A stretch of DNA of 64,000 nt. It comes from Klenkia taihuensis. GTDB taxonomy: Bacteria > Actinomycetota > Actinomycetes > Mycobacteriales > Geodermatophilaceae. The stretch's first letter is position 1. Each line of letters begins with the position of its first letter. The stretch lies in NCBI RefSeq assembly GCF_900112525.1, contig NZ_FOMD01000002.1, forward strand, positions 124,001 to 188,000, in the 5' to 3' direction. Below the pieces are notes generated by a model. It was not told the DNA's origin. It saw only the letters and a list, made by a program, of their open reading frames with translations, and did no database searches. The position numbers were made by a program, and so were the translations under genes. Of this stretch, positions 8,574 through 32,611 are shown piece by piece.

Positions 8574-10144
8574 TGCCCGCCGTTCTTGCCGGCCCGCTGG
8601 ACCGGGTGCGCACGACGCTGGCCACGATGACCTTCCAGCAGAAGGCCATCGCCGCCGTCCTGGTGCTGGGCCTCGCGCTGGGCTCGTTCTTCTTCGTGCG
8701 CTGGGTGACCACGCCGACCTACGAGCCGCTGTTCTCCAACCTCTCGGCCAGCGACGCCTCCGCCATCCGCGACGAGCTCGACACCGAGGGCGTGCCCTAC
8801 CAGCTGCAGGGCACCGACACGATCCTGGTCCCCAAGGACCAGGTCTACAGCCTGCGCCTGTCGATGGCCGGCAAGGGCCTGACCCCGCAGGCCGGCAGCG
8901 ACTCCGGCTACGCGCTGCTGGACCAGGGCGGCATCACCACCAGCGAGTTCCAGCAGCAGACCACCTACCAGCGGGCCCTCGAGGGCGAGCTCAACAACAC
9001 CCTCGAGTCGATGAACGGCGTGCAGACCGCCGCGGTGCACATCGCCATGCCCAAGGAGGAGGTCTTCGTCACCGACACCAGCAACCCGACCGCCTCGGTG
9101 CTGCTGGACCTCACCCCGGGCACCGAGCTCTCCGGCGAGCAGGTGCAGTCGATCGTCAACCTGGTCGCCGGCTCCGTCTCGGGGATGAAGCCCGCCGACG
9201 TCACCGTCACCGACACCGACGGCCAGCTGCTGTCGGCGGCCGGCAGCGTGGGCGGCACCAGCAGCCAGTCCGACGCCACGGCCACCTTCCAGAACACCCT
9301 GCAGGCCAACGCGCAGAACCTGCTCGACCGCGTCCTGGGCCCGGGCAACTCCATCGTGACGGTCGCCGCCACGATGAACTTCGACCAGAGCCAGAGCACC
9401 GCGACCACCTACAGCTACCCGGCCCAGCTCCCGGCGACGTCGGAGGCGACGACGTCGGAGACCTACACCGGCACCGGCTCGGGCGTCAGCGGCGTGCTCG
9501 GCACCGACGGCACCACCGGGGCCACCACCGGCGGCGACGGCAACTACGACAAGAACTCCACGACGGTCAACAACCCGATCAACACGACCGTCACCAACAC
9601 CGTCTCCACCCCGGGCCAGGTCGAGCGGCTGACCGTCGCGGTCGCCCTCAACACCGCCGGCGGCAGCACGGTGCCCAACGGCACCATCCAGGACCTGGTC
9701 AGCCAGGCCGTCTCCCTGGACCCCGCCCGCGGCGACGCCATCACCGTCTCCTCGATGGCGTTCAGCACCGCCGCGGCCGACGCGGCCCAGGCCGGCATCG
9801 CCGCGGCCAACGAGGCCGCCGCCAGCGAGCAGATGTGGTCGATGGTCAAGACCGGCGCCATCGTCGGGGGCCTGCTCCTGGTCCTGCTGCTGGTCTGGCT
9901 GAAGAACCGGAAGAAGAAGGGCGACCTCGACGAGGACTACGAGGAGCTGGACGGCGACTACGACGACCTCGACGCGCTGCAGGTGGCCAGCACCCGCGAC
10001 GCCGGCCTGCAGTCGCGCACCGCGGCCGCCGTCGAGGCCATGGAGCGCCAGCGCCTGCGCGGTGAGATCACCACCATGATCGAGTCGCAGCCCGACGCCG
10101 TGGCGTCGACCCTGCGCGGCTGGTTGGCCGAGAGCCGGACATGA
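8573..10144 (+). CDS. fliF: Flagellar MS-ring protein FliF
   Basis: A 523-residue membrane protein that builds the MS ring in the cytoplasmic membrane. A transmembrane segment near residues 19-41 precedes the ring-building domains (PTYEPLFSNLSASDASAIRD). A Thr/Gly-rich loop follows, then a second membrane segment near 424-443 (GAIVGGLLLVLLLVWLK) and a charged cytoplasmic tail ending VASTLRGWLAESRT, the region that binds FliG. Architecture and length are normal. It overlaps fliE and fliG by one and four bases. Confidence 0.96.
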   Translation: MPAVLAGPLDRVRTTLATMTFQQKAIAAVLVLGLALGSFFFVRWVTTPTYEPLFSNLSASDASAIRDELDTEGVPYQLQGTDTILVPKDQVYSLRLSMAGKGLTPQAGSDSGYALLDQGGITTSEFQQQTTYQRALEGELNNTLESMNGVQTAAVHIAMPKEEVFVTDTSNPTASVLLDLTPGTELSGEQVQSIVNLVAGSVSGMKPADVTVTDTDGQLLSAAGSVGGTSSQSDATATFQNTLQANAQNLLDRVLGPGNSIVTVAATMNFDQSQSTATTYSYPAQLPATSEATTSETYTGTGSGVSGVLGTDGTTGATTGGDGNYDKNSTTVNNPINTTVTNTVSTPGQVERLTVAVALNTAGGSTVPNGTIQDLVSQAVSLDPARGDAITVSSMAFSTAAADAAQAGIAAANEAAASEQMWSMVKTGAIVGGLLLVLLLVWLKNRKKKGDLDEDYEELDGDYDDLDALQVASTRDAGLQSRTAAAVEAMERQRLRGEITTMIESQPDAVASTLRGWLAESRT

Positions 10145-11223
10145 CCCTGGCGTCCGTCGAGCAGATGGTGGGCCTGGAGCCCGGGGGCGACCCCGACCGG
10201 GCTCCCGTCCGCCTGCCCCGACGCGACCTCTCCGGACTCCGCAAGGCTGCTCTCTTCCTTGCCCAGATGACCCGGGAGGAAGCGGGGGCCGTCATGGCCC
10301 AGCTGACCCCCGAGGAGATCGACGCCCTCACCGGTGAGCTGATGCGGCTCAAGAGCGTCGACCCGGGCGACATCGACGACGTCCTGTTCGAGTTCCACGA
10401 CCGGATGCTGCACGCGCCGGCCGTCGGGGCGGGCGGGCTGGAGTTCGCCCGGCAGGCGCTCACCGCCGGGCTCGGCGACGCCGAGGCCGCCGCCGTCCTC
10501 GGCCGGCTGCAGAGCGTCTACGAGGAGCCGCCGTTCACCTCGCTGCGCAACGCCGACACCCGGCAGCTGCTGTCCTTCGTGCGCGAGGAGCACCCGCAGA
10601 TCATCGCGCTGGTGCTGGCCCACCTGCCCGCCCCGCAGTCGGCGGAGCTGATGAGCCGCCTCGAGCCCGACCGCCAGGCCGACGTCGCGCTGCGGATCGC
10701 GATGATGGACCGCACCACCCCCGAGGTGGTCCGGCTCGTCGAGGACGAGATCGGGCGCCGGATGGGCTCGCTGCTGTCCTCGCCGGACCTGCCCGCCGCC
10801 GGTGGTGTCGAGACCCTCGTCGAGATCATCAACCGGGCGTCGCGGCCGACCGAGAAGTCGATCCTGGAGGCCCTGGCCACCAACGACCCGGAGCTGGCCG
10901 AGAAGGTCCGTTCGCAGATGTTCGTCTTCGAGGACATCGTCATCGTCGACGACCGGTCCATGCAGCTGGTGCTCCGCGAGGTGTCCCCCGCCGACCTGGC
11001 CGCCGCGCTCAAGGGCGTGCGGGACGACGTCCGCGACAAGGTCATGCGGAACCTCTCCGAGCGCGCCGCGCTCGACCTCACCGACGAGATCGAGCTGCTC
11101 GGCCCGGTCCGCGCGGCCACGGTCGGCGAGGCCCAGGCCCGGGTGGTCGCGGTCCTGCGGACCATGGAGGAGTCCGGCCAGATCACCATCGACCGGGGAG
11201 GCGACGATGACCTCATCGCCTGA
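10141..11223 (+). CDS. fliG: Flagellar motor switch protein FliG
   Basis: A 360-residue C-ring protein. It has the FliG order: an N-terminal FliF-binding helical domain (LSGLRKAALFLAQMTREEAG), the EHPQIIALVLAHLP signature near residue 150, and the armadillo-like middle. The C-terminal torque domain contains MFVFEDIVIVDDRSMQLVL, where charged residues face MotA. The N-terminal tail of about 25 residues is longer than usual. ATG overlaps the fliF stop, and fliH begins inside the last codons. Confidence 0.95.
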   Translation: MTLASVEQMVGLEPGGDPDRAPVRLPRRDLSGLRKAALFLAQMTREEAGAVMAQLTPEEIDALTGELMRLKSVDPGDIDDVLFEFHDRMLHAPAVGAGGLEFARQALTAGLGDAEAAAVLGRLQSVYEEPPFTSLRNADTRQLLSFVREEHPQIIALVLAHLPAPQSAELMSRLEPDRQADVALRIAMMDRTTPEVVRLVEDEIGRRMGSLLSSPDLPAAGGVETLVEIINRASRPTEKSILEALATNDPELAEKVRSQMFVFEDIVIVDDRSMQLVLREVSPADLAAALKGVRDDVRDKVMRNLSERAALDLTDEIELLGPVRAATVGEAQARVVAVLRTMEESGQITIDRGGDDDLIA

Positions 11224-13374: not shown

Positions 13375-13823
13375 AGCGCACCGCCTTCCGGCTGCAGCCG
13401 GTGCTCGAGCTGCGCCGCGCCCAGGAGCGGGCCGCCGGTGCCGCCGCCGCGGCGGCGGCGCGCGCCGCGGCCCGCAGCGAGGCGCAGGCCGCCGACGTCA
13501 CCCGCTCGCTGGCGTCGGCCCGGCTGCCGGAGCGGATGGACGGCGCGACCTTCGTGGCGACCATGGTCGGGTTGCGCGCCCTGGCCGCCGATGAGGTGGA
13601 TGCCCGGGCCACCGCCCGGGCCACCGCCGAGCAGGCCGAGGCGGTGCGCGCCAGTTGGACCGCCGCCGCGCAGGCCACCAAGGCCCTGGAGCGGCTGGCC
13701 GAGCGGCACCGGCTCGCCGCCGTGCGGGCCGAGCTCGCCGCCGAGGAGCGCGCGGCTGACGACGTCGTCACCGGGCGGCACGGCCGGACCAGGACCGGGG
13801 AGGAGGACACGTGGAAGGCCTGA
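13371..13823 (+). CDS. fliJ: FliJ-like flagellar export protein
   Basis: A 150-residue, almost wholly helical Ala/Arg/Glu-rich protein starting with FRLQPVLELRRAQE, the usual FliJ opening (F.L..VL..R...E). FliJ is a coiled-coil stalk that sits in the FliI hexamer and touches FlhA. GTG start overlaps the fliI stop. The call depends on the N-terminal motif, coiled-coil composition and position after fliI. The 3' end overlaps the next gene by 13 bases. Confidence 0.86.
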   Translation: MKRTAFRLQPVLELRRAQERAAGAAAAAAARAAARSEAQAADVTRSLASARLPERMDGATFVATMVGLRALAADEVDARATARATAEQAEAVRASWTAAAQATKALERLAERHRLAAVRAELAAEERAADDVVTGRHGRTRTGEEDTWKA

Positions 13824-14770
13824 CCGCCGTCCAGAGCAGGATCGCCGAGATCCAGAGCCGCATGGCGACCTTCGCCGGCGGTGGCCCGAACGCCGCGTGG
13901 CTGTCCGCCGCGTCCGCCGCCGGGCTGATGGGCACCACCTCCACCGCGGCCGCCACCGGCAGCACCGCGGCCGCCGCCGGGACCTCCGCGGAGACCGCCG
14001 TCGTGCAGGCCGCGACCGAGTACCTGGGCGTGCCCTACCTGTGGGGCGGCACCGACCCGGCGAAGGGCCTGGACTGCTCCGGCTTCACCCAGCGCGTCTT
14101 CGCCGACGTCGGCATCACCATCCCCCGCACCTCCAGCCAGCAGGCCACCGCGGGCACCGCCGTCGCGAACCTCGCCGACGCCCGCCCCGGCGACCTCGTC
14201 TTCTTCGACAACAGCTCGGCCCGCGCCGGCATCGACCACGTCGGGATCTACCTCGGGAACGGGAAGATGATCGCCTCACCGCAGGAGGGCGACGTCGTCA
14301 AGGTGCAGGACGTCGGCAACCCCACCGTCATCCGCCGCGTGCTGCCCACGGCCGCTCCGGCCGCGGCGCCCCCGGGCGGCTCGCTGGCCGGCGTGCCCTA
14401 CGCCGACCTGTTCACCGCCGCGGCCTCGCGGCACGGCGTGAGCGCCGCCGTGCTCGCCGGCATGGCCGAGGTCGAGTCCGGCTTCGACCCGGGCGCGGTG
14501 AGCCCGGCCGGCGCCCAGGGCCTCATGCAGTTCATGCCCGCGACCGCCGCCGGCCTCGGCGTGCGGCCCATGGACCCGGCCTCCGCCGTCGACGGCGCCG
14601 CGAGGTACCTGGCGCAGCTGACCGCCCGCTTCGGCTCCACCGACCTCGCGCTGGCCGCCTACAACGCCGGCCCGACCGCGGTCGCGAACGCCGGCGGCAT
14701 CCCGGCCTACGCCGAGACCCAGGCCTACGTCCGCAAGGTCAACGCGGCCGCCGCGGGGTACGCGTCGTGA
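13811..14770 (+). CDS. Two-domain peptidoglycan hydrolase: NlpC/P60 plus lytic transglycosylase, flagellar
   Basis: A 319-residue cell-wall enzyme with two catalytic domains. Residues about 60-175 are NlpC/P60: YLGVPYLWGGTDP, catalytic Cys near 89 in GLDCSGF, and His near 143 in IDHVGIYLG. Residues about 195-315 are a soluble lytic transglycosylase domain: catalytic Glu near 222 in EVESGFDP, then GAQGLMQFMPATA and AYNAGP. No Sec signal is visible, so export through the flagellar apparatus is likely. Lying between fliJ and fliK, it takes the place that FlgJ fills elsewhere, opening the wall for the rod. GTG 13811 has GGAGGA upstream. Confidence 0.9.
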   Translation: MEGLTAVQSRIAEIQSRMATFAGGGPNAAWLSAASAAGLMGTTSTAAATGSTAAAAGTSAETAVVQAATEYLGVPYLWGGTDPAKGLDCSGFTQRVFADVGITIPRTSSQQATAGTAVANLADARPGDLVFFDNSSARAGIDHVGIYLGNGKMIASPQEGDVVKVQDVGNPTVIRRVLPTAAPAAAPPGGSLAGVPYADLFTAAASRHGVSAAVLAGMAEVESGFDPGAVSPAGAQGLMQFMPATAAGLGVRPMDPASAVDGAARYLAQLTARFGSTDLALAAYNAGPTAVANAGGIPAYAETQAYVRKVNAAAAGYAS

Positions 14771-16455
14771 CCGCCGCCCTCGGCGCGCAGGTCGCCGTCG
14801 CCGCGCCCGCCGCCCCCGCCACCGGTCCCACGGCCGGCGACCCGGACGGCGCGGCCGCCTTCGCCGGCGTCCTGCAGTCCGCCGTGCAGGCACAGCGGGA
14901 CCCGGCCGGGACGCCGGACGACCGCCCCGCGACCCCGGACGACGAGGACGCCGCCACTGCGCTGGTGGCCGCGTCCCCGGTGGGTGCGCCGCCCTGGTTC
15001 CTGCTTGCCGTGCAGCCCGCCGCGGCCGTGGCCGCCGTGGTGACGCCGGTCGAGGGCAGCTCCGCCACCGCCGTCGGCGCCGTCCCGCCCGGCGGACCGG
15101 TGACCGCTCCCCCGGCCGCAGCCGTGGTCGCAACGTCCCTGCCCGCTGCCGCAGCGGCGCCCGCGGCCGAGGGGGGCGCCGCCGTCCCGGCGCCCACCGC
15201 ACCGGGCTCCGCCCCCGCCGCCACCGTCACCTCCCCCGCCGCGGCTGCCCCCACCGTCGCCTCCGACGACCAGGTACGCACCCCCGCTGCCGTCAGCGCG
15301 CCCACCGGGGCCACCGGGCTCGACGGCCGCCCCGGGCCGGCCACCGTGCCGAGCACGGCCGGCGTGCCCGCGTCGCCGACCGGCCCCGCCCCCGCCGTGC
15401 CCGGCCCGCCGGCGGACCCGGCCGGCACGCCGGCCACCGGTCCGGCCCCCGCGGCCGCGCAGCCCCCCGGCGTCCCGGCGGCCGGCCAGGTCGCCGCCCC
15501 GACGGCCGTCCCGGTCGACACCGTGGCCGGTCCGGACCTGCCCGGAGCGCCCGTCGCCGTGCCGCCGTCGGCCGCCGCGGGTGCCCGGCCGGCCGGCCTG
15601 CCCGCGGCCACCGCCGCCACCCCCGGCGCGGTCGCCGTCCCGGGCAGCACCGGGTCCGCCCCGGCCGTGACCGCACCCACCAGCGCGGCCGTCGAGCCTC
15701 CCGTGACGGACGCCGCGGCGGCTGCCCCGACCGACGACCCGGTGGCCCCGCCCGTCGTCGCCGCGGCGCGGGCGGCGACCACGACCGCGCCGGCCCCTGC
15801 TGCCGAGCCGGTCGCCGTCGCCGGCGCACCGGCCGCCCCGGCGCCGTCCGGCCCGTCCGCACCGGCCTCCGTCCCGACCTCCGCCCCGACCGGGCCCGAG
15901 GCGGTCGACGTCCCCCGCACCGACGCCCTGCTCCCGGGCGCCGCCCCCGCGCCGGCGGCGGCCCCGGCCCCGGCCGCGGCCGTCCCGACCGGACCGGCCC
16001 CGGCCGCTCCGGCCGACCCCCCGGTGGCCGCCCAGCTGGCCCCGCAGCTGACCGCACTGGCGACCCGCGACGGCAGCCACTCGGTGACCGTCGTGCTCGC
16101 CCCGGAGTCCCTGGGCCGGGTCGAGGTCCAGCTGACGGTCACCGGTGACCAGGTGTCGCTGGCGATGAGCGCCGGGCAGGACGGCAGCCGTGCCGTGCTG
16201 GCCGACGCGGTCCCCGAGCTGCGCCGTGAACTCGCCGCCGCGGGCCTGCAGCTGACCGACGCCCAGGTCTCCACCGGTGGCGGCCAGCAGTCCGGCTCGG
16301 GCTGGACCGCTGGCCAGGACCCCCGCTCACCGGGTCCCCGCTGGGATGCGGTACCGACCGGCCGCGCGACTGCCGATGAGGACACCAGCACCAGCAGCAC
16401 CACCCGCCACACCCGTGGCGGACCGGCGCCCTCCGGCGTCGACGTCCGCGTCTGA
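14767..16455 (+). CDS. fliK: Flagellar hook-length control protein FliK
   Basis: A 562-residue protein. Residues about 40-430 are extremely Ala/Pro/Val/Thr-rich low-complexity sequence, expected for the extended molecular ruler that measures the hook. Residues about 440-510 form the conserved C-terminal Flg_hook domain (HSVTVVLAPESLGRVEVQLT, then VPELRRELAAAGLQL), which contacts FlhB and switches export specificity. The GTG at 14767 overlaps the stop of the hydrolase gene (GTGA); the frame is open further upstream only as a shadow. flgD and flgE follow, as is usual. Confidence 0.9.
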   Translation: MTAALGAQVAVAAPAAPATGPTAGDPDGAAAFAGVLQSAVQAQRDPAGTPDDRPATPDDEDAATALVAASPVGAPPWFLLAVQPAAAVAAVVTPVEGSSATAVGAVPPGGPVTAPPAAAVVATSLPAAAAAPAAEGGAAVPAPTAPGSAPAATVTSPAAAAPTVASDDQVRTPAAVSAPTGATGLDGRPGPATVPSTAGVPASPTGPAPAVPGPPADPAGTPATGPAPAAAQPPGVPAAGQVAAPTAVPVDTVAGPDLPGAPVAVPPSAAAGARPAGLPAATAATPGAVAVPGSTGSAPAVTAPTSAAVEPPVTDAAAAAPTDDPVAPPVVAAARAATTTAPAPAAEPVAVAGAPAAPAPSGPSAPASVPTSAPTGPEAVDVPRTDALLPGAAPAPAAAPAPAAAVPTGPAPAAPADPPVAAQLAPQLTALATRDGSHSVTVVLAPESLGRVEVQLTVTGDQVSLAMSAGQDGSRAVLADAVPELRRELAAAGLQLTDAQVSTGGGQQSGSGWTAGQDPRSPGPRWDAVPTGRATADEDTSTSSTTRHTRGGPAPSGVDVRV

Positions 16456-26299: not shown

Positions 26300-28333
26300 G
26301 TGAAGTGGACGACGGCAGCCGTGCCCATCGGCGTGGTGGCGATCGTCCTCATGCTCGTGGTGCCGATGCCCGCGATGCTGCTGGACCTGCTCATCGGGCT
26401 GAACATCGCCGCGTCGCTGCTGATCCTGCTGGTCGCGATGTCGATCAAGCGGCCGCTGGACTTCGCCGTCTTCCCCTCGGCCATCCTCATCGCCACCCTG
26501 CTGCGGCTGGCGCTCAACGTCTCCTCGACGCGCCTGGTGCTGTCCGACGGCTACGCCGGGGCGGTCATCGAGGCCTTCGGCCACTTCGTCATCGGCGGCT
26601 CGCTGGTGGTCGGCCTGGTGGTCTTCCTGATCCTGGTCGTCATCCAGTTCGTGGTGATCACCAAGGGTGCCGAGCGCGTCGCCGAGGTCGGCGCGCGCTT
26701 CACCCTGGACGCGATGCCCGGCAAGCAGATGGCCATCGACGCCGACCTGAACGCCGGCCTGATCACCGAGGCGCAGGCCCGCAAGCGCCGCGCCGAGGTC
26801 ACCGCCGAGGCCGACTTCTACGGCTCGATGGACGGTGCCAGCAAGTTCGTCAAGGGCGACGCCATCGCCGCCATCATCATCGTGCTGGTCAACCTCATCG
26901 GTGGGCTGACCATCGGCATGGTGCAGAACGGCATGGACGCCGGCACCGCGGTGAGCACCTACTCGCTGCTGGCGGTCGGCGACGGCCTGGTCTCGATGGT
27001 CCCGGCGCTGCTGCTCTCGACCGCGACCGGCATCGTGGTCACCCGCTCGGCCGCCGACGGCGAGCTCGGCGAGGACCTGCTCGGCCAGCTCGGCCGCACC
27101 AAGCAGCCGCTGCGCATCGCCGGTGCCGGCCTCCTCGCCCTGGGCCTCATCCCGGGCCTGCCCAAGCTGCCCTTCCTGCTCACCGGCGCGGTCATGTTGT
27201 TCCTGGCCACCCGGGTCAAGGACACCGTCCCCGAGGACGAGGACGCCGCCGCCCCGGCCGCCGACGAGCCCTCCCCGGACTCCCCCGAGGCCATCGCCGA
27301 GAAGATGCGCGTCGACCCGCTGGAGCTCGAGGTCGCCTTCGACCTCGTCGAGCTGGTCGACACCGCGCGCGGCGGGGACCTGCTGGACCGGGTCAAGGCG
27401 CTGCGCCGCAAGGTCGCCATGGACACCGGCCTGGTCATCCCGCTGGTGCGCACCCGCGACAACCTGGACCTGCCCGCCTCCCAGTACGTGGTGTGGCTCA
27501 ACGGCGTCCCGGTCGCCAAGGGGACGTCGCCGGCGGGCACCGTGCTGGCCATCGGCGACTCGCTGGAGGGCCTGCCCGGCAAGCCCACCCGCGAGCCGGT
27601 GTTCGGCCTGGCCGCCAAGTGGGTGCCCGCCGAGCTGCAGCGCCAGGCCGAGATGGCCGGCGCGACCGTCGTCGACCGGTCCTCGGTCATCACGACCCAC
27701 CTGGCCGAGGTCGTGCGGCAGAACGCCGCGCAGCTGCTGGGCCGCGAGGACGTGAAGCTGCTGCTGGAGATGGTTCGCCGCTCGCACCCCGTCGTCGTCG
27801 AGGAGCTGACCGGCGGCGGGCTGTCGCTGGGCCAGGTGCAGCAGGTGCTGCAGGCGCTGCTCGAGGAGGGCGTCTCGATCCGCGACCTGGTCCGGATCTT
27901 CGAGGCGCTGTCCCTGCGCGCCAAGACCGCCACCGACATCGACAGCCTGGTCGAGGCGGCGCGCGCGGCGCTGGGGCCGGCGATCAGCCACCCCTACGTG
28001 ACCGCGGACGAGAAGCTGTACGTGATGACCCTCGACCCCGGCCTGGAGCAGCGGCTGCTGTCCGCGGTCCGGCAGGGCGAGCAGGGTGCCGTGCTGGCCC
28101 TGGACGCCGGCATGGTCGACGCCCTGGCCCGCGGGGCCAGCGACCTGCTGGACGACGCCGAGAAGCTCGGGATCACCGCGCTGCTGGTCTGCTCCCCGCA
28201 GGTCCGCCCGGCGCTGTCCCGGCTGATGCGTCAGGTGGTGGCCCGCTGCACGGTCATCTCCTACGCCGAGGTCTCCCGTACGGCCCAGATCGAGACGATC
28301 GGAGTGGTGAACGGTGCCGTCGCACTTGCCTGA
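26300..28333 (+). CDS. flhA: Flagellar export gate protein FlhA
   Basis: A 677-residue protein: about eight membrane segments in residues 1-310, then a large cytoplasmic domain that forms the nonameric docking ring. The FHIPEP signature is present ([20 protein letters not shown]), followed by [20 protein letters not shown] and the [17 protein letters not shown] segment. Normal length. GTG 26300 starts directly at the first membrane helix and has no ribosome site, but a promoter -10 lies eight bases upstream. The 3' end overlaps the next gene by 20 bases. Confidence 0.96.
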
Positions 28334-31300
28334 GCCGCCGTCCGGGGCGACCCGGGACGAGGCCATCGCCGCCGCGCGCGAGGAGTACGGCTCCGACGTG
28401 CGGATCCGCGGCGTGCGCCGCATCCGCACCGGGGGCGTCGCCGGCTTCTTCAGCCAGGAGCGCTACGTCGCCGACGTCGTGCTCCCCGCGGGGACCGCGG
28501 CCACGCCCGCGGCGTCGGCCCCCCAGGCCGCCGCGAAGCCGACGGCGAAGGCCGCCCCGGCCGCGAAGGCCGCGAAGGCCGCGAAGGCCGCGAAGGCCGC
28601 GAAGGCGGCCAAGCCCGCGAAGCCCGCCAAGGCGTCCGGGCCGCAGGTCGCCCCGGCCCGCGCCGCGACGCCGGTCGTGGTCGCCGAGGTGCCCGCCGCC
28701 GGGCTCTCCCAGGCCGACGTGATGGCCCGCTGGCCCTCCGCCGGGCTGTCGGTGGACGACCTGCTCGAGGTCGCCCTGCAGGTCCGCGACGCCCAGCGCA
28801 GCGCCGACGACACCCCGACCGGCGCCATCCCCGCCGTCGACCCCGTCGACGAGCTGACCGACCTGCTGGGCTCGCCCGCCGACGCCGACGTCGACGTGTA
28901 CAGCCCGGCCTCGCTGGCGCGGTCCGCCGCGCCCGCCCCGCGCCGGGCCGCCGCGCCGCGCCCGGCCGACACCGGGTCCACCGCGGAGCCCGCGCGGACC
29001 GGGTGTCGCCCGATCGCGACCCGCCGGGAGGAGGAGCCGGCCGCGCCGGCCGCGCCGGCGTGGGAGCGCACCTCGCGCACCGCGCCCGCGGCCGAGGAGC
29101 CGGCGGCCGAGGTGGCCGACGAGCAGGCGCCCCCCTCCCCCTTCGCCGCCGCGCTGATGCGCGTGGTGACCCAGGACGACGAGGTGGAGGCCGCCGTGGC
29201 CGACGCCGAGCAGCAGGAACAGGAGCAGCGGGTGGCCGCCGAGCAGGACCAGGCGCCGGTCGCGGCCGCCACCGACCGGCCCGCCGCCGACCCCGTCGTC
29301 GACCGCGCCGCCGCCGTGCGCGCGGCGGCGCTCCGGGCCGAGGCGCAGGCCGTGGCCGCCGCCCGCGCCGACGCCGCCCGGCGCGAGGTGCTCGCCGCCG
29401 AGCTCGCCGACGCCCCCGCCCTGACCGCCGGCCCGGCCGCGGCCGGGGAGGTCGTCGCCGTCGTGGACACACCCGCCCCTGCCACCGCCACTGCGTCCCG
29501 CACGCCCGAGGAGCGCCGGGCCGCCGCCCGGGCCCGCGCCGAGGCCCGCCGTGCCGCGCGGGAGGCCCGCGCGGCCGGGGCCGCCCCCGCGGCCGAGCCG
29601 GCGCCCGCCGCCGCCCCGGCCCCCGCGGAGCCGGTCTGGGACGCCACCACCATCATCGAGCTGGCCCCCCGGCCCGGTCGCCCCGCGGCCGCGCAGCGGC
29701 CCCCGGCCCCCGCGGCCGCACCGGTGGCCACCCCGCCCGCCGCCGAGGCACCCGCTGCGGCCCCCGCGCCGGCGCCCACCAAGGTGACCTCGGCCCGGGC
29801 CGGCGCCGCCCAGCTGCGGGAGGCCGCCATCCGCGCCGCCGGCGAGCTGGCCGAGCGCGCGGCCGCCCCGGCCGGGCCGGCACCGGACCTGCTGGACGAG
29901 TTCGTCGACCCGGAGCTCGCGGCCCCGGCCGCCCCGGCCCCCGTCGCCGCAGCGGCCCCGGCCGCTGCCTCCGCCGAGCCCTCGCTGCAGGAGCGCGCTG
30001 CGCGCCTGCGGTCCGTGCTGGCCGCCGCGACCCCGGGTGCGGCACCGGTCGCCCCGGCCGAGGTCGCCGGGGAGCAGGCCCCCGCCCGCCGCAGCCTCCC
30101 GGCGGTCCCGCCGGCCGCGTCCTCGGCGGCCCGCCGCGCCGCCGAGGCCGAGGCCGAGGCCGCGCGGCTCGAGGCGGAGCGGGCCGAGGCGGAGCGGGCC
30201 GAGGCGGAGCGGGCCGCCGCCGAGGCAGCCCGGGTCGCCGCCGAGCAGGCCGAGGCCGCCCGCATCGAGGCCGGGCGGATCGAGGCCGAGGCCGCCCGCG
30301 TCCGGGCCGAGCAGGCCGCCGCCGAGGCGGCCCGGGTCGAGGCGGCCCGTGTCGAGGCGGCCCGGGTCGAGGCGGCCCGTGTCGAGGCGGCCCGTGTCGA
30401 GGCGGCCCGTGCCGAGGCCGAGCGCCTCGCCGCCGAGCGGGCCGAGGCCGCCCGGCTCGAGGCCGAGCGGGCCGCCGCCGAGGAGGCCCGGGTCGCTGCC
30501 GAGCTGGCCGAGCGCGTCCGGGCCGAGCAGGCCGCGGCCGAGGCCGCCCGCGTCGAGGCCGAGCGCGCCGCCGCCGAGCTGGCCGAGGCCGCCCGCGTGG
30601 AGGCCGAGCGCATCGCGGCGGTCCGGGCCGCGGAGGAGCGGGACGAGGCCGCCCGGGTGGCCGCTGAGCAGCGGGCCGCCGAGGAGGCCGCGCGCGCGGC
30701 CGAGCAGGCCGAGGCGGAGCGGGCCAAGGCGCGCCAGGCGCTGGCCGCCCGCACCGCCCAGGAGGTCGAGGACGCCGCCGGTCGCCGGCGCACCCGCGCC
30801 GAGCGCCGCGCCGCGGCCGAGCTCGCCCGCGCCGGGGTGGTCGTCCCGGCCCCCGGGCGCACGCCCGCCCCTGCCGCCGCCGAGGTGGCCGAGGTGCCCG
30901 AGGTCGACCCGCTGTGGGGCACGCCCGTGCGTCGTCCGGCAGAGGTCGCCGAGGTCACCGCGGTGGTGGAGGCCGACGGCGGCCGGCACCGCGGGGTGCC
31001 CGCGGCCGAGGTCCCGCCCCCGCTCGCGGTGGCCGAGCCGGTCGAGGGCGAGCTCGTCGACGTCCCGCCGCCGGGCTTCCCGGCCGGCTCGCGGTACGAC
31101 GAGGTCCTCTTCGGCGGCACGCGGTCCACGCCCCGCGCTGCGCAGGCCGACCCGCTGGAGGCACTGCGCGCCGCCGCGCTGGCCGGCGGGTCGGTCTCCC
31201 CGCGCCGCCGCCGCGCCGACAGCGCCGGCCGGCACCGCACGGCCCCCACCCAGGTCGACATGCCCGCGGTGGGTGCGGCGCGGCTGACCGCGCTGGAGGA

Positions 31301-32372
31301 CCCGTCGGAGGCGACGTCGGGCTTCCTCGACGTGCTGCAGGCCGTGGCCGACAGCGACTTCGCGGCCCCCGTGCCCGCCGAGGCACCCGAGGTCCCCGAG
31401 CTGCTGGTGCAGGAGATGGCGCACGAGATGGCCGCCGGCATGGCCGAGGAGCTCGCCCGCACGGCGACCGACCTGCCGATGACCGCCGACGCCACCACCG
31501 TGCTCCCGGGCCTGGCCGCGGTCGTGCCGGCGTCGGTGCCCCGGGTGCGCGGCCACCGGCCGCCCGTCCCGGCACCCTCGGGCCGGTCGCGCTCCCTGCC
31601 GCCGCACCCCTCCACGCGGATGCGCGGCACCCGCGGCGACGACGGCGACCGCTGGGCCACCATCACCCACCTGGTCCCCGTCACCGACGACGCCTCCCCC
31701 GCCGACAGCGGCGTGGCCGGGCTGGCCGCCCTCGGCGTCCCCGCCGCGGTGCTCGGCGCCGACTTCGCCGCCGACGCCTCGCGCCGCGGGACCTTCGCCG
31801 CGCTGGCCTCGGCCCTGGGCCGGGCGCTGCCCGCCGCCCCGGCGATGCCGTCGGAGCCCGGTGACGTGCTCGTGGTCGTCGGCCCCGGCGCCGAGGCCCT
31901 GACCGCCGCGCGGGCGCTGGCCGTCGCGCTGCGGCTGGACCCGGCCCGGGTGCAGTGGTGCACCCGCGGCGCGCTGGCCGGCCTGGTGCCCGCCGACGTG
32001 CAGGTGGCCGGTGCCACCGCGGCCGCCGACCGCCGCGCGCAGGCCGCCGCCGCCGACGTCCCGACCGTCGTCGCCGTCGACGTCCCGCTGGGCGACGCCG
32101 GTGGCGCGTGGGCGGCGCAGATGCTGCAGGCGTGGTCGGCGACCGCGGTCTGGGGCGTGCTGGACGCCACCCGCAAGCCCGGTGCGCTGCGCACCTGGCT
32201 CGCCGGGCTGCCGCGCGTGGACGCCGTCGTCGTCACCGACACCGACACCGCGCCCGACCCGGCCACCCTGCTCGACGGCCTGCCGGTGCCGGTGGCCGTC
32301 GTCGACGGCGCCCGGGCCACCCCGCACCGGTGGGCCGCCCTGCTCTGCGAGCGGCTGGCCGGTCGGCAATGA
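28314..32372 (+). CDS. Giant FlhF-like protein with degenerate SRP-type GTPase domain and long Ala/Glu/Arg helix
   Basis: A 1352-residue protein in the flhF position after flhA. Residues about 10-60 match the FlhF N-terminal motif ([20 protein letters not shown], then [13 protein letters not shown]). Residues about 80-108 are Ala-Ala-Lys repeats. Residues about 600-840 are a charged, probably single or coiled helix built from five-residue units (EAERA, VEAAR). The C-terminal 240 residues resemble an SRP-GTPase NG fold: VLVVVG at the P-loop strand, [20 protein letters not shown], then DAVVVT and [10 protein letters not shown]. The nucleotide motifs are lost, however: GPGAEALTA replaces GxxGxGKTT (1190-1198) and TDTDT replaces TKLDE (1308-1312). 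FlhF sets flagellar number and place; this one probably cannot use GTP. No flhG follows. GTG or ATG alternatives do not change the picture. Confidence 0.8.
28561..28632 (+). repeat. In-gene tandem repeat of a 9-bp unit (Ala-Ala-Lys)
   Basis: Unit GCGAAGGCC repeated five to six times with minor changes, then two AAGCCC variants. It encodes an Ala/Lys/Pro tract like histone H1 tails. Being in-frame, copy-number changes would not break the gene. Confidence 0.85.
30171..30417 (+). repeat. In-gene tandem repeats of 15-bp units (EAERA and VEAAR)
   Basis: Two blocks: three copies of GAGGCGGAGCGGGCC near 30171-30215, and six to seven copies of GTCGAGGCGGCCCGK near 30323-30417. Each unit is five codons with Glu and Arg spaced for intrahelical salt bridges, so the helix can lengthen in frame. 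Confidence 0.85.
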
Positions 32373-32611
32373 GCCCGCTGCGCTGGGACGTCCTCGGCGC
32401 AGCGGCGCTCTTCGCCGTCCCGGTCCTGCTGCTGGGCGCGCTGGGCACGCTGGACACCGACGTCGTGGTGGCGCGGCTGCCCTGGTGCCTGCTGGCCGGC
32501 TGGGTCGTCAGCTCCCTGCTGCGTGCGGTGTTCCCGGCCCCCAAGCCGGAGCCGAAGGGACGCCGGCGCCCGCACCCGGCGGTCGAGGCCGCCGAACCCG
32601 CCGACGCCTGA
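32369..32611 (+). CDS. Small two-helix membrane protein of unknown function
   Basis: An 80-residue protein whose ATG overlaps the stop of the FlhF-like gene (ATGA), so it is translated with it. Two hydrophobic segments (about 7-27, [19 protein letters not shown], and 37-55, [19 protein letters not shown]) are followed by a Pro/Lys/Arg-rich tail. Not recognised. The tight coupling to the FlhF-like gene suggests a membrane partner for it, but this is inference from position. It ends convergent to the phoH-like gene. Confidence 0.75.

Follow-up and report, generated by a model that had tools for sequence, protein, structure and literature searches.

The window, i.e. the whole 64,000-nucleotide stretch of Klenkia taihuensis DNA that was analysed (contig NZ_FOMD01000002.1, positions 124,001 to 188,000), contains a flagellar gene cluster in which Pfam matches placed fliD, fliF, fliG, fliI, fliK, flgE, motA, fliL, fliM, fliN, fliO, fliP, fliR, flhB and flhA 5' of a gene for a FlhF homologue, the identities of FlhA and FlhB being agreed by both Pfam and NCBIfam. 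The product of fliG (10141..11223, +), in which FliG_N, FliG_M and FliG_C were all recognised, is the expected binding partner of the FliG-interacting domain (FID) of FlhF, and that of fliK (13438-16455, +) is, at 1005 aa, also very long. The flhF-like gene itself is a GTG-initiated open reading frame (28314-32372, +) encoding 1352 aa, the start of which shares 20 nt with flhA (26300..28333, +; TIGR01398, 798.7 bits), an arrangement that the first-pass annotation of this DNA had described correctly. In 50 of the other 52 family loci, too, the gene lies in a flagellar cluster immediately 3' of flhA and in the same orientation. The opposite strand of the window carries two open frames of ~1370 aa that mirror the flhF-like gene (28254-32369 and 28463-32575, both -); these are probably an effect of GC-rich DNA rather than genes.

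Overlapping the stop of the flhF-like gene by 4 nt is an open frame for a small hydrophobic protein of 80 aa (32369..32611, +), with two membrane helices as judged by eye and no match in Pfam. A relative of this protein is encoded directly 3' of the flhF-like gene in all 20 other family loci compared. A similar-looking hydrophobic protein also follows flhA directly in 16 genomes of the class that have no flhF at that place, an equivalence drawn outside the family from position and appearance, with a tblastn E of 2e-4 at best.

Judged by its sequence, the N-terminus of the 1352-aa product (residues 1-59; 28314..28490, +), with the motif GGVAGFF at residues 40-46, is an FID. The NCBIfam FlhF model TIGR03499 matched this region with E 8e-5, at a score (22.8 bits) far under its cut-off of 174.15. 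Profiles were prepared from the first ~58 aligned residues of 18 family members lacking the P-loop and of 10 P-loop-bearing FlhF proteins, and their comparison by hhalign, covering 54 columns, gave 99.1% with E 1.6e-18. When the P-loop-less FID profile was compared with PDB sequences, the top match was the FlhF FID crystal structure 9en1 (E 7.7e-4), followed by unrelated entries at E 0.024 and above. The motif was present in 51 of the 53 family genomes, and in one of the other two the gene is cut by a contig end.

The C-terminus (residues 1137-1352; 31722..32369, +) is a degenerate NG domain of the SRP-GTPase type. Its family profile scored 37.9 against the FlhF NG profile, whereas none of 200 column shuffles scored above 23.0, and it also outscored a reversed control. 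The predicted fold matched SRP-type GTPases both in Foldseek and in VIA-align, the latter serving as a second look at the top 1000 chains from Foldseek. The NG fold is thus present, and the order of SRP-GTPase elements claimed by the first-pass annotation was upheld. The SRP54 model (PF00448) found two loci only in the organism's own genome, neither of them the FlhF homologue; by sequence they are Ffh and FtsY, and since there is no further SRP54-model locus the idea that a second match might be an FlhF encoded elsewhere was discarded.

Within this domain the place of the P-loop (G1) is taken by GPGAEALTA (residues 1190-1198; 31881..31907, +), and that of DTAGR (G3), a ten-residue stretch (32067..32096, +), contains VDVPLGD. 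The FlhF-type block VLDATRKP (residues 1282-1289; 32157..32180, +), which corresponds to the canonical TTKxxD, survives, and the place of TKLDE (G4) reads TDTDT (residues 1308-1312; 32235..32249, +) within VTDTDT. The motif positions given previously therefore hold. No other part of the protein carries an intact P-loop, a finding that had been named as grounds for rejecting the annotation: GxxxxGK[TS] was absent from the open frames of all 53 family genomes (those with a domain that matched the profile; the frames of two are partial), and DTAGR plus TKLD were not seen in the aligned family rows. Of the P-loop, the first Gly was kept in 52 of 52 rows. The Lys and Asp of TTKxxD remained in 47 and 43 of 53, respectively (6/6 each in the six canonical rows), as did, next to TKLDE on its C-terminal side, a Pro in 52 of 53 (canonical, 6/6). 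Two new Trp are near-invariant in the family (model columns W143, 50/53, and W203, 46/46). Taken across the 53 aligned rows, these retained and lost columns indicate that the nucleotide contacts have gone and that some FlhF positions survive.

In six further families (f30, f53, f61, f49, f55 and f43) the C-domain is much more eroded. The profile of this group gave 47% against the main P-loop-less profile and 1.0% against the canonical NG domain, with alignment limited to the FID and the N-subdomain/first strand, so that homology of the G part in this group was not supported by profile comparison.

Between these two ends lies an Ala/Pro/charge-rich linker (residues 60-1136; 28491..31721, +), the hypervariability of which is apparent from the spread of lengths in the family and from tandem repeats: the shortest open frame in the family has 301 aa and the longest 1660, with conserved ends. 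The very long charged helix previously reported in the middle of the protein is indeed present as a Pro/Gly-free, helix-like run of 168 residues (655-822; 30276..30779, +), of which 41% are charged and for which an i+3/i+4 salt-pair z of 3.3, together with the absence of a clear heptad, fits a single charged helix. In the window DNA the run is built on tandem repeats of 15-96 bp, and a Pro/Gly-free run of at least 100 residues occurred in only 11 of the 51 family members checked, and the notion that a long helix is the conserved hallmark of these proteins was rejected. Both observations make it unlikely that the protein bridges a fixed distance between the pole and the basal body; the linker looks like a loose spacer of rapidly changing length.

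The expected partner FlhG, with its DQAxxLR helix, was not detected at E 1e-20 in a profile search of the whole own genome, a threshold at which a much diverged FlhG could be missed, and to that extent its reported absence stands. At the same threshold only the three positive controls matched among 47 genomes, there being no match in the other 44 (the own genome and 43 further), of which nine have a P-loop-bearing FlhF and 35 do not. An FlhG-type Walker motif adjoined flhF in each of the 14 loci above the FlhF cut-off (L065-L078) and in none of the other loci compared with them, and DQAxxLR was present in all eight of the FlhG-type proteins inspected. The nine P-loop-bearing genomes imply that FlhG can be absent while the P-loop stays; that FlhG was lost first in the later Actinomycetota lineage itself is a guess.

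As to the gene that follows, among 51 stretches downstream of a P-loop-less flhF the next gene encoded a PilZ protein in 18, one of them weakly matched (E 7e-4); in 20 it encoded the small hydrophobic protein (tblastn E up to 0.01). Pfam agreed with the PilZ identity of both downstream proteins tested. In loci such as L043 (4164-4829, +) and L099 (2103-2756, +) the gene for PilZ, a c-di-GMP receptor, occupies the usual flhG slot after flhF. No PilZ match was recorded downstream in the 20 Geodermatophilaceae loci compared, nor in the window. The genome also encodes one protein of the DivIVA family.

The search for homologues in other actinomycetes, advocated in the first-pass annotation, revealed P-loop-less FlhF across the later Actinomycetota, with open frames down to 301 aa. 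Among near relatives 34 of 60 genomes gave a match, and in a sample of the class 29 of 394 at E 1e-3. Of the latter 28 were convincing, the other (G656, E 8.4e-4) being dropped as a chance match in a genome without FlhA. FlhA was present in 51 of the 394 genomes, including all 28. The slot after flhA was read by eye in each of the 23 FlhA-positive genomes without a C-domain match, and held an FID-only protein in two (G361 and G380), a divergent P-loop-less FlhF in one (G622), an FID start at a contig end in one (G370), the small hydrophobic protein in 16 and csrA in three. In 19 of the 51 FlhA-positive genomes, therefore, the gene after flhA is not flhF, from which it follows that flhF is dispensable for having flagellar genes. 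The FID-only open frames (250-278 aa) retain the FID and linker with the NG domain gone, and the one scanned of the two matched NCBIfam FlhF at E 4e-8; the loci concerned (L124:564-1394, +, and L126) belong to two genomes of one family.

In the phylum sample FlhA was found in 63 of 396 genomes, and TIGR03499 exceeded its cut-off in 14 of 296. Outside the class 59 genomes were FlhA-positive, and the slots examined in 37 of them comprised 14 with a P-loop (G178 included), 18 with an FID and no P-loop (G335 included), one cut before the G domain, and four of family f26 in which no FID was found, two of these four having fewer than 900 bases covered. At one locus (L148, G335) the FID and C-domain lie in different frames, as a result of a frameshift or a sequence error. 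Because related bacteria carry similar forms devoid of the GTP site, FlhF has probably been changed rather than lost in this branch of the Actinomycetota.

A FlhA tree of 41 rows, with no outgroup root, fell into two parts. One comprised the 12 rows with a P-loop-bearing FlhF and a single row lacking flhF; the other contained the remaining 28, in which FlhF is P-loop-less, reduced to the FID, or absent. Support for the split was 100/100, and it recurred in 100% of 200 bootstraps after removal of one long row. As the tree is unrooted, the view that GTP binding was lost just once is its most economical reading and no proof.

Selection was assessed principally in six pairs of five close Klenkia genomes (that of the window, brasiliensis, soli, marina and terrae), the C-domain of the window protein being 99% identical to its K. 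brasiliensis counterpart. In these pairs dN/dS was 0.03-0.23 (C-domain) and 0-0.21 (FID), and between closely related species the FlhF homologue is thus under purifying selection. Pairs that involve two less closely related members of the genus gave 0.35-0.50 and 0.14-0.27, respectively, and all pairs beyond the five close genomes 0.35-0.73 and 0.14-0.52, with near-saturated synonymous sites, the maximum of 0.73 coming from pairs beyond the genus; such distant values are inflated by a plateau of synonymous sites in GC-rich DNA near 0.35-0.45. The earlier description of the GTPase as decayed is, on the values from close species, misleading.

The protein resembles FlhF (TIGR03499), for example that of S. 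putrefaciens (PDB 8r9r; FID 9en1) and the FlhF structure 2px3, in its FID-linker-NG architecture and NG fold, in its gene place after flhA and in the TTKxxD and Pro columns. Unlike these proteins, it has no P-loop, DTAGR or TKLD, no detected FlhG, a linker of ~1080 aa and a score well below the model cut-off. P-loop-bearing FlhF proteins of other Actinomycetota lineages (e.g. L079, L160, L164 and L165) share with it an FID containing GG(I/V/L)xGFF, the gene place and the undetected FlhG, but retain GxxxxGK[TS].

The reading favoured here, and considered rather probable, is that the protein is the FlhF homologue of this flagellar system and that nucleotide binding was most simply lost once, before the later classes of Actinomycetota diverged. 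It is supported by the homology of the FID, the homology and fold of the NG domain, the uniform lack of GxxxxGK[TS] in the family, the place after flhA, the presence of FlhA in all 28 convincing class genomes, the clean split of the FlhA tree, the FlhG profile result, the low dN/dS among close Klenkia genomes, and the two genomes (G361 and G380) that have no G domain yet retain the FID. The homologue probably works without GTP. That part of the first-pass proposal gains from the missing GTPase site and undetected FlhG; its restriction to a giant protein does not survive the 301-aa members. The FID may still bind FliG and help to nucleate or order MS-/C-ring assembly, with the linker as a loose spacer, and in place of a GTP-timed homodimer the pseudo-NG domain would dock constitutively, either to another protein or to a site in the cell. 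With no GTP/GDP cycle and no FlhG, release from FliG would be unnecessary or controlled otherwise. Pseudomonas aeruginosa FlhF without its G domain still allows flagella to be built, mostly misplaced (PMC12713375), and the need for FlhF GTPase activity differs among species (PMC12826062). According to PMC12713375, however, binding of P. aeruginosa FlhF to FliG is supported by GTP and abolished by GDP; nucleotide-free FliG binding is consequently not general, which counts against the proposed mechanism. The favoured reading is also weakened by the 19 FlhA-positive class genomes in which another gene than flhF follows flhA, and by the higher dN/dS of the more distant pairs.

A slow erosion, in which FlhG, GTP binding, the G domain and then the whole gene vanish while a weak FID role lingers, would account for the graded forms observed (FlhF with FlhG, FlhF alone, P-loop-less FlhF, FID-only and gene absent), for the six strongly eroded families and for the high distant-pair dN/dS. 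The low values among close species, the near-invariance of the new Trp residues and the retention of the gene in 28 of the 51 class genomes with FlhA (a further three have a divergent or FID-only form, and in one it is cut by a contig end) speak against such a vestige, which is accordingly held to be conceivable though improbable. Similarly doubtful is a more elaborate history in which an ancestor of the later classes dismantled the FlhF/FlhG switch, FlhG perhaps first and GTP binding second, leaving FlhF as a nucleotide-free scaffold whose pseudo-NG domain answers to a new regulator, PilZ/c-di-GMP or a small membrane protein, encoded at the former place of flhG; were it true, the FliG-binding FID would be the core, GTP-independent function of FlhF. 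The narrower proposal of a re-purposed switch, with a new partner or ligand such as PilZ or the small hydrophobic protein replacing FlhG and GTP at the pseudo-NG domain, draws on the same neighbours and on the two new Trp, but gene order is not interaction and PilZ is missing from the Geodermatophilaceae loci compared and from the window, so that it is rated distinctly unlikely.

Residual GTP binding through a non-canonical site is hinted at by the invariant first Gly of the P-loop, but the loss of GK[TS] from every member open frame examined, and of DTAGR and TKLD from the aligned rows, leaves it very improbable. Least credible, and already disfavoured, is an unrelated alpha/beta protein resembling SRP GTPases by chance. 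Pfam gave no family match for the whole protein at E 1, the C-domain profile match to Ffh/FtsY, whose own GTPase motifs are intact, fell within shuffles and was not significant, and a sequence-only profile search of the PDB ranked two unrelated chains (E 0.05) ahead of SRP54 (E 0.07); against this stand the fused FID, the fold match, the gene position and the shuffle and reversed controls with FlhF NG, by which an unrelated Rossmann protein was rejected.

The P-loop-less protein is regarded as a new form of FlhF, since a literature search of open-licence papers yielded no report of one; nor does 'FlhF' occur in the main text of the family paper (PMC9686282). FlhF belongs to the three SRP-type GTPases, and in many species its GTP cycle is regarded as central to flagellar placement (PMC12826062). 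A 2023 mBio survey of actinobacterial flagella by BLASTP/PSI-BLAST described FlhF as lacking in later classes (PMC10746217). The three later classes named there appear to correspond to the P-loop-less side recorded here, and a BLAST-based survey would easily miss so degenerate a form with its GTPase site gone; in contrast with that published absence, FlhF in later Actinomycetota is often present but degenerate. One phylum thus offers a switch with FlhG, a GTPase alone, a pseudo-GTPase, the FID only, and none, a natural set of stages that makes the role of FlhF without GTP directly testable in harmless soil bacteria.

Some P-loop-bearing FlhF proteins without FlhG (L154, L160, L161, L162 and L173) have an altered DTAGR or TKLD, perhaps as early steps of the same loss.
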